Source: Clostridiales bacterium
Lineage (GTDB): Bacteria > Bacillota > Clostridia > Christensenellales > Aristaeellaceae
Assembly: GCA_012729115.1 (NCBI GenBank)
Contig: JAAYDR010000091.1
Coordinates: 1 to 57,765 of the forward strand
Length of the DNA stretch: 57,765 nt
Direction: 5' to 3'
Both the position numbers and the translations under genes were made by a program. This document shows, in pieces, positions 10,404 through 10,608 of this stretch. The notes under the pieces were generated by a model that ran no database searches, was not told the DNA's origin, and saw only the letters and a list, made by a program, of their open reading frames with translations. The stretch's first letter is position 1. Every line of letters begins with the position of its first letter.

Positions 10404-10443
10404 ATAGAAAAAGCCCGCCTCGCGCAGATGCGAAGCGGGCTTT
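10404..10443 (-). terminator. Intrinsic terminator in the metN leader (attenuator)
   Basis: On the minus strand AAAGCCCGC pairs with GCGGGCTTT, extended by about five inner pairs, followed by a run of five T. It lies after the leader ORF stop and about 30 bases before the metN start, so it would stop transcription before metN unless it is disrupted. A segment inside the leader ORF (10488-10499) is complementary in two blocks to the 5' arm and loop of this hairpin (about 10421-10433), a possible antiterminator. Confidence 0.85.
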
Positions 10444-10457
10444 GAATCACATACCGA

Positions 10458-10535
10458 TCAAGCGACGCAACACAAACAGCACGAGCAATCGCACGCGCAC
10501 ATCATGCACATCGACATGGCACATAGGTTCGTCAT
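10458..10535 (-). CDS. Cys/Met-rich leader peptide, 25 residues, upstream of metNIQ
   Basis: A short ORF on the minus strand starts at an ATG preceded by a near-perfect AAAGGAGG eight bases away and ends in TGA. Of 25 residues, nine are Cys (5, 10, 13, 15, 17, 19, 20, 22, 23) and five are Met (1, 7, 9, 11, 12); the C-terminal half reads CACDCSCCLCC. The stop is 14 bases before the stem of an intrinsic terminator that precedes metN. Promoter, strong RBS, sulfur-amino-acid codon run and terminator together are the layout of a ribosome-mediated transcription attenuator. The likely signal is supply of charged tRNA-Cys or tRNA-Met. A metal-binding microprotein is the alternative reading. Confidence 0.85.
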   Translation of the reverse strand: MTNLCAMSMCMMCACDCSCCLCCVA

Positions 10536-10579
10536 GTGCGATTCCTCCTTTCACTGCCGGTACTCCTTGATTGGAATAT

Positions 10580-10608
10580 ACGATACCATAGACATGGGAA
10601 GCTGTCAA
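10580..10608 (-). promoter_or_regulatory. Predicted promoter of the metNIQ leader transcript
   Basis: On the minus strand a perfect TTGACA and TATCGT are separated by 17 bases, 45 bases upstream of the leader peptide ATG. The predicted transcript begins near 10573 and carries the leader ORF and terminator. Confidence 0.65.

Follow-up and report, generated by a model that had tools for sequence, protein, structure and literature searches.

In Bacillota, control of methionine genes is usually attributed to SAM riboswitches or T-boxes, and the SAM riboswitch (RF00162) acts on them by termination. According to the accessible part of a 2010 survey, leader-peptide systems were known, ermC aside, only in Proteobacteria and Actinobacteria before that survey's own hisS leaders of bacilli (PMC2965389). 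The ilv attenuator Rli60 of Listeria monocytogenes was reported after it; in the available portion of that report, the attenuator is mutation-tested and has a terminator of -17.1 and an alternative structure of -10.3 kcal/mol (PMC5864092). As described there, Rli60 resembles the leader studied here in belonging to Bacillota, in the ribosome-mediated mode that we predict, and in two alternative structures of which the terminator is the stronger. It differs in having branched-chain codons and ilv-leu biosynthesis genes, the genes here being those of a sulfur amino acid importer. An actinobacterial comparative study found, in its accessible text, Cys structures and no Met structures (PMC1262725). 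Its mycobacterial leaders are also Cys-rich short ORFs before sulfur genes, but in that text their Cys runs lie near the stop codon and they have no conserved terminator hairpin, whereas the present leader has conserved Met codons upstream of its Cys tail, and a terminator. The closest precedent is metL of Streptomyces lividans TK24, which shares with our locus a short Met/Cys ORF (MSTTSDRTPATEATTTPGARCMCRRMCAF) before metNIQ and is listed, as a prediction, as a methionine attenuator (PMC8079986). Likened to ours by the description in the part of the source available, metL differs in that it comes from one actinobacterial genome, has a leaderless transcript, and reportedly misses a typical Rho-independent terminator. 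Our literature search, with most subscription journals outside its coverage, returned no Met leader in Bacillota, and one before metNIQ, the Streptomyces prediction. The comparison suggests that the metNIQ leader belongs to the leader-peptide attenuators as a variant that responds mainly to methionine and is new in the Bacillota literature searched.

The window, the whole 57,765-nucleotide stretch of DNA that was analysed, contains this leader between ahcY and metN. The promoter, Shine-Dalgarno sequence, 25-codon ORF, terminator and metN of the original prediction were all found at the places it gave, with the stop codon 14 nt upstream of the terminator stem (Table 1). In that stem, 10443-10430 pairs with 10423-10410 around a loop at 10429-10424. 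The ORF has nine Cys and five Met codons, start Met counted, so that Cys (9) exceeds body Met (4). When the whole window was scanned with Rfam, 0 families matched at the gathering threshold; it was confirmed that neither a SAM riboswitch nor a T-box is found here. The SAM riboswitch, with which the leader has methionine-gene control in Bacillota as common ground, is thus absent from the window. It may be noted that the N-terminus of MetQ, MKKLLAVLLVAILTVGATSALANE, is without a lipobox cysteine, which is unusual, such binding proteins normally being lipoproteins.

Table 1. Positions of the leader elements and neighbouring genes in the window, with the basis of each assignment
Feature	Position	Strand	Basis or remark
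Sigma-70-type promoter, TTGACA-17-TATCGT	10608-10580	minus	sequence
5' protector segment (AUCAAGG...)	10554-10572	minus	can pair with ORF end; alignment helices 1 and 2
Shine-Dalgarno AAAGGAGG	10551-10544	minus	8 nt 5' of ATG at 10535
Spacer AAUCGCAC	10536-10543	minus	part of putative protector hairpin; complements GUGCGAUU at 10494-10487 (helix 3)
Leader ORF MTNLCAMSMCMMCACDCSCCLCCVA*, 25 codons	10535-10458	minus	sequence and relatives
Met core, codons 7-12 (M-S-M-C-M-M), candidate stall sites	10500-10517	minus	genus/g14 conservation and blind-ORF Met enrichment
Predicted antiterminator 5' arm (UGUG..GCG..GCUU), codons 21-25 and first base of stop	10474-10460	minus	comparative
Predicted antiterminator 3' arm (AAGC.CGC..CGCA), overlaps terminator 5' arm	10442-10429	minus	comparative
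Intrinsic terminator, 14-bp stem and T run	10408-10443	minus	folding and family alignment
metN (ATPase)	10376-9291	minus	TIGR02314, 357.3 bits, best family, below 499.7 cut-off
metI (permease)	9294-8632	minus	NF008049, 205.5 bits, best family, cut-off 212
metQ (binding protein)	8602-7787	minus	NF008285, 141.8 bits, best family, cut-off 374
ahcY, other flank of leader region	11889-10648	minus	TIGR00936, 558.8 bits, cut-off 497.6

The leader was present in all 17 genomes examined of the genus that contains Candidatus Limiplasma. A search with the single peptide found it in 16 of the 17 (that of the window included), in 1/19 from the family's other genera and in 0/24 from the rest of the order; a profile search added the 17th genus genome (G003) and two further genomes of genus g14. 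metN immediately follows the leader in 15 of these 17 genomes; the contigs of G010 and G015 stop short of it. Four genus genomes have contigs (G007:C13/C18, G008:C20/C41, G010:C82 and G015:C295) that break off at or beside the leader, perhaps at k-mers common to co-assembled species.

Sixteen genus/g14 leaders, including that of the window, were aligned. Each has the promoter layout TTGACA-17/18-TAnnnT and a Shine-Dalgarno sequence with an ATG or GTG start (GTG in 13, ATG in 3), followed by an ORF of 25 or 26 codons; VTNLCAMRMNMMCACDFSPCYLCCVA is a typical genus peptide. Mean column identity over the whole leader was 76% at the nucleotide level. M7, M11 and M12 occur in 16/16 leaders and M9 in 14/16. 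Cys is found at codons 15 and 23 in all 16, at codon 22 in 15, at codons 5 and 13 in 14, and at codons 10 and 17 in only four each.

Regions upstream of metN were fetched for 80 family members, 19 members of other families of the order (of 33 matches outside the family) and 40 members of other orders of the class (of 58 matches outside the order). The 80 were a subset of a search matching 259/308 family genomes. In all three sets, regions were taken as a rule by best E-value first. L071 (28 nt; family) and L182 (127 nt; class) fell below the length limit and were dropped. The layout of promoter, ORF and terminator before metN recurs across the family, and less often in the rest of the order and class. 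Family peptides include MKKGTMRMFMRAGHSLH, MKQFAMRMSKRAGCLRV, MRQMMMRMPMMCVIPVPCF and MTRHTMRMSMMMRSSTPRLLRRAA, in which Met is kept and Cys is variable. The best Shine-Dalgarno ORF of 79 family regions had at least three body Met in 43 cases, compared with 3 on the reverse strand; the Cys counterpart was 22 compared with 6.

A further ORF set, called blind below, was selected by Shine-Dalgarno sequence and terminator only, ignoring residue content; the other ORF listings (family, order and class examples) were picked using Met or Cys content. Among 98 family and order regions, a terminator was found in 72 and an ORF in 60. Met stood at 221 in these 60 ORFs, 10.9-fold the 20.3 that shuffled bodies would give, and Cys at 128, 2.3-fold the expected 56.3; Lys came next at 1.99-fold. 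The sequences share kinship and their z-scores are therefore not probabilities. At least two body Met were present in 52 of the 60. Met-rich leaders also occur beyond the family, where their sequences are quite unlike those of family members; examples are MESVFATMMMPMSCMSMMMCGS... (L142), MNVRAMMCSMMMCRSMSLHGECMRPACA (L151), VRVTMRMSVYMLMMSMMMSMLMCMYMC... (L165, with 13 body Met) and MNHSEAMQMNMDRMNDMCMMMCCMSECVKNR (L184). A best ORF with at least six Met occurred in 4/19 order regions (0/950 dinucleotide shuffles) and in 4/39 class regions (0/1950). Met leaders before metN are not universal in the family, order or class: an ORF with at least four Met was absent from 33/39 class and 11/19 order regions, and only 6 of 24 re-examined family regions had one with at least two.

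A translatable Shine-Dalgarno ORF lies between promoter and terminator, the 60 blind ORFs are enriched for codons of the amino acid supplied, and an intrinsic terminator precedes the first gene. An alternative antiterminator that would exclude the terminator was found by comparison (core pairs and family alignment) and is not significant in single sequences. The comparison shows a conserved ORF, Met enrichment, the terminator and a predicted antiterminator pairing, and supports the earlier claim of a leader-peptide attenuator on metNIQ. As far as sequence can tell, we think it quite probable that the leader is a ribosome-mediated transcription attenuator with methionyl-tRNA as its main signal.

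With methionine ample, the ribosome would pass codons 7-12, reach the stop codon and cover the arm formed by codons 21-25; with the arm covered, the terminator would form and metNIQ would be off. When Met-tRNA is short, the ribosome would stall on the Met codons. In the window ORF, these codons occupy nt 19-36 and the arm nt 62-76. A ribosome footprint extends about 12 nt past the first A-site base. Met codons 7-12 could signal shortage because a ribosome waiting at codon 12 would have its front edge at about nt 46 of the ORF, leaving the arm free. The freed arm would then engage the terminator's 5' half, and transcription would continue into metNIQ. If no ribosome is translating, the leader's 5' part together with the start region would pair with the ORF and shield the arm, so that the default would be off. 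Stalling on the Met codons, the switching step, the direction of the response and the off state without translation are our inferences from layout and geometry. The finished terminator (-26.8 kcal/mol) is stronger than the antiterminator (-14.6 kcal/mol); therefore, such a switch would have to be kinetic.

On folding, the window terminator was equalled by 0 of 200 shuffles; the antiterminator (z -1.11, 29/200 shuffles as stable) and the protector (z -0.92, 33/200) were not above chance in the window alone. The original prediction had paired 10499-10488 with 10433-10421. Comparative support was found instead for 10474-10460 with 10442-10429, about 25 nt downstream. The earlier segment (codons 13-16) could form a duplex with the region around the terminator loop (-15.1 kcal/mol), yet in the 16-sequence alignment it sits in helix 3, formed with the start region.

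In predicted folds, the four core pairs of the antiterminator occurred in 16/16 genus/g14 leaders and the remaining pairs in 9-14. A family alignment was made from 47 leaders, omitting six with other terminators (L061, L093, L103, L111, L112, L115) and adding 7 of the 16 genus/g14 sequences. Over its 48 sequences (46 distinct), 84.3% of antiterminator cells pair, compared with 36.0-52.7% in slid controls; 0/500 shuffles pair as well, and the covariation score was reached by 3/500. Double changes were seen in 6/11 pairs, against 3-6 in slid controls, and 23/500 shuffles matched this. The third pair is U-G in 27 sequences and C-G in 13. Codon 22 of the window ORF begins with the 5' base of this pair; a U-to-C change there turns Cys into Arg and gives a better pair. 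The genus-set covariation test found the antiterminator without any double change. In a per-locus shuffled-duplex test, p<=0.05 was reached in only 5/54 loci, GC-rich leaders pairing easily. The terminator was 85.2% paired in the family alignment, with 34 double-change cells and a covariation score reached by 0/500 shuffles.

For the putative protector, helix 1 had 83.3% of cells paired, with double changes in 2/6 pairs, helix 2 had 67.5%, and helix 3 (start region with codons 13-16) had 90.1% in the 16-sequence alignment. The whole protector was 85.3% paired; 10/500 shuffles were as high and 73/500 reached its covariation score. Overall, the alignment gives this hairpin weak support.

At the end of the ORF, the nucleotides TTTGTGYTGCGYCGCTTGA of the final codons persist beyond the peptide. 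They stand directly after an earlier stop codon, partly shortened, in L054, L057, L058, L072, L073, L076, L077 and L133; L082 has a similar stretch after its stop, and in L116 the tail nucleotides are read in another frame as FVLR. Base pairing is possible between this stretch and the terminator's 5' half. By this comparison, the Cys-rich tail of the peptide is a putative RNA antiterminator arm read in frame: Cys would stand at the C-terminal end because those nucleotides encode the arm. An RNA arm read in frame would account for part of the striking Cys-rich peptide.

Some Cys codons may add a cysteine signal. Codons 5, 10, 13 and 15 sit in the zone where a stalled ribosome would leave the arm free, and codon 17 is borderline. 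The tail Cys codons could not signal because a ribosome at codons 19-23 or at the stop would cover the arm wholly or partly. As an extension of the methionine explanation, the leader may be a dual attenuator in which Met and Cys codons within the first 15 are both read and either shortage opens metNIQ; we regard this as possible, with the chances somewhat against it. With Met codons held fixed, 13 leaders outside the family had 33 Cys, compared with 10.8 when the other bases were shuffled and 20.1 when shuffled within codon positions. These 13 were chosen by Met content, which makes their Met and frame counts circular and leaves the Cys excess free of this. The 16 genus/g14 leaders had 102, compared with 17.5 and 48.2; 0/2000 shuffles of each kind reached the counts in either set. 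The conservation of C5, C13 and C15 in the genus/g14 leaders also speaks for a second signal, as does the mixture of Met and Cys in the S. lividans leader (RCMCRRMCAF, in the part of the source available; PMC8079986). Against it, the C-terminal Cys residues are accounted for by the RNA arm, the family leaders L054, L057, L082 and L096 (as read by ORF) have no Cys and L067 has one, and C5 is Y in G004, R in G116, and in other genera commonly replaced by F, M or R. If the second signal is true, the importer may be tuned to both methionine and cysteine.

The original prediction named shortage of Cys- or Met-tRNA and drew out the case of a cysteine-based signal. Cysteine as the main signal, which is favoured by the nine Cys codons of the window ORF and by the Cys-rich leaders predicted before mycobacterial cys genes (PMC1262725, in its accessible text), was not supported. 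The leader ORF was indeed found throughout the genus, but in other genera its Cys codons are often Arg or untranslated, so that Cys is not kept as Cys across relatives; Met is the residue kept in common. The tail nucleotides are untranslated in L082 and in the eight leaders named above as carrying them after an earlier stop. Stalling at codons 22-23, moreover, would leave the arm hidden under the ribosome. A cysteine-specific attenuator is hence very improbable.

Another reading is an arrest peptide, whose nascent chain, with its MRMSM core, would halt translation when it binds a small molecule such as methionine or SAM, and not for want of charged tRNA. MRM is common to 36 of the 53 blind family ORFs, in most of them with S or F and then M after it. 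The Arg codon of this Met-Arg-Met core is CGA in 36/36 family ORFs of the blind set (genus leaders also use CGG), which points to RNA, and the core is mostly missing from Met-rich leaders outside the family; we hold an arrest peptide to be very unlikely. Where C precedes, CAU-GCGA-AUG is formed, a possible GNRA-capped hairpin holding the Met codons of MRM. Given the fixed CGA and this possible hairpin, part of the Met conservation may be at the RNA level. A last reading takes the leader as an untranslated RNA switch, either an undescribed riboswitch or a site for a protein, whose ORF arose by chance. The strong nucleotide conservation over the whole leader and the blindness of an Rfam scan to undescribed classes would favour it. 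It is the least probable reading, as all 16 aligned leaders have an ATG or GTG start with a Shine-Dalgarno sequence, the length change within the genus is a whole codon, and the ATG counts of the ORF frame and the two others are 182:3:5 in 47 family leaders (taken blind, then kept if they had at least two Met, hence partly circular).

The attenuator read by methionyl-tRNA would stand beside a SAM riboswitch in the same genome. Under strict filters, a SAM riboswitch match was found in 43 of 60 genomes searched. The genome of the window has a single match (C120:138919-139020), directly before metK (TIGR01034, 601.7 bits), which points to a division of labour there: SAM riboswitch at metK, leader peptide at metNIQ. 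A translated Met-codon sensor would read charged tRNA, a different quantity from that expected under a SAM riboswitch or T-box assignment. Such a sensor would work under a peculiar limitation, as every peptide begins with methionine too. A bell-shaped response could follow because Met also starts the leader, and the untranslated leader would fold into a protected, terminating form. It is conceivable, and on balance unlikely, that Met-codon leaders across several Clostridia families read methionyl- and cysteinyl-tRNA beside the metK SAM riboswitch in this way, being on at moderate and off at severe Met starvation. The same genome carries a cysK/cysM-type gene.

Beyond the window, Rfam was applied to 20 family regions (80 having been fetched), 20 class regions (from 40), the 19 order regions and one further family region. 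The 20 class regions gave one SAM riboswitch (L193). Near an order-level metN, a ZMP/ZTP riboswitch match was found (L138:65-148).

A second metN in G006 (L067, G006:C3:130460-131060) has its own, different leader, MKQFAMRMSKRAGCLRV, and the identical peptide occurs in L073 of genus g6. Two regions, L113 and L114, come from genomes G114 and G113. At L113:323-409 the Met leader MRFNVHSMRMFLMCAEMSDALFGLHRNA, which has the usual terminator, faces away from metN, toward a short ORF and a reading frame that is presumably DUF218/YdcF-like. L114 has a Met-rich reverse-strand ORF with 6 Met, on the same relative strand as the L113 leader.
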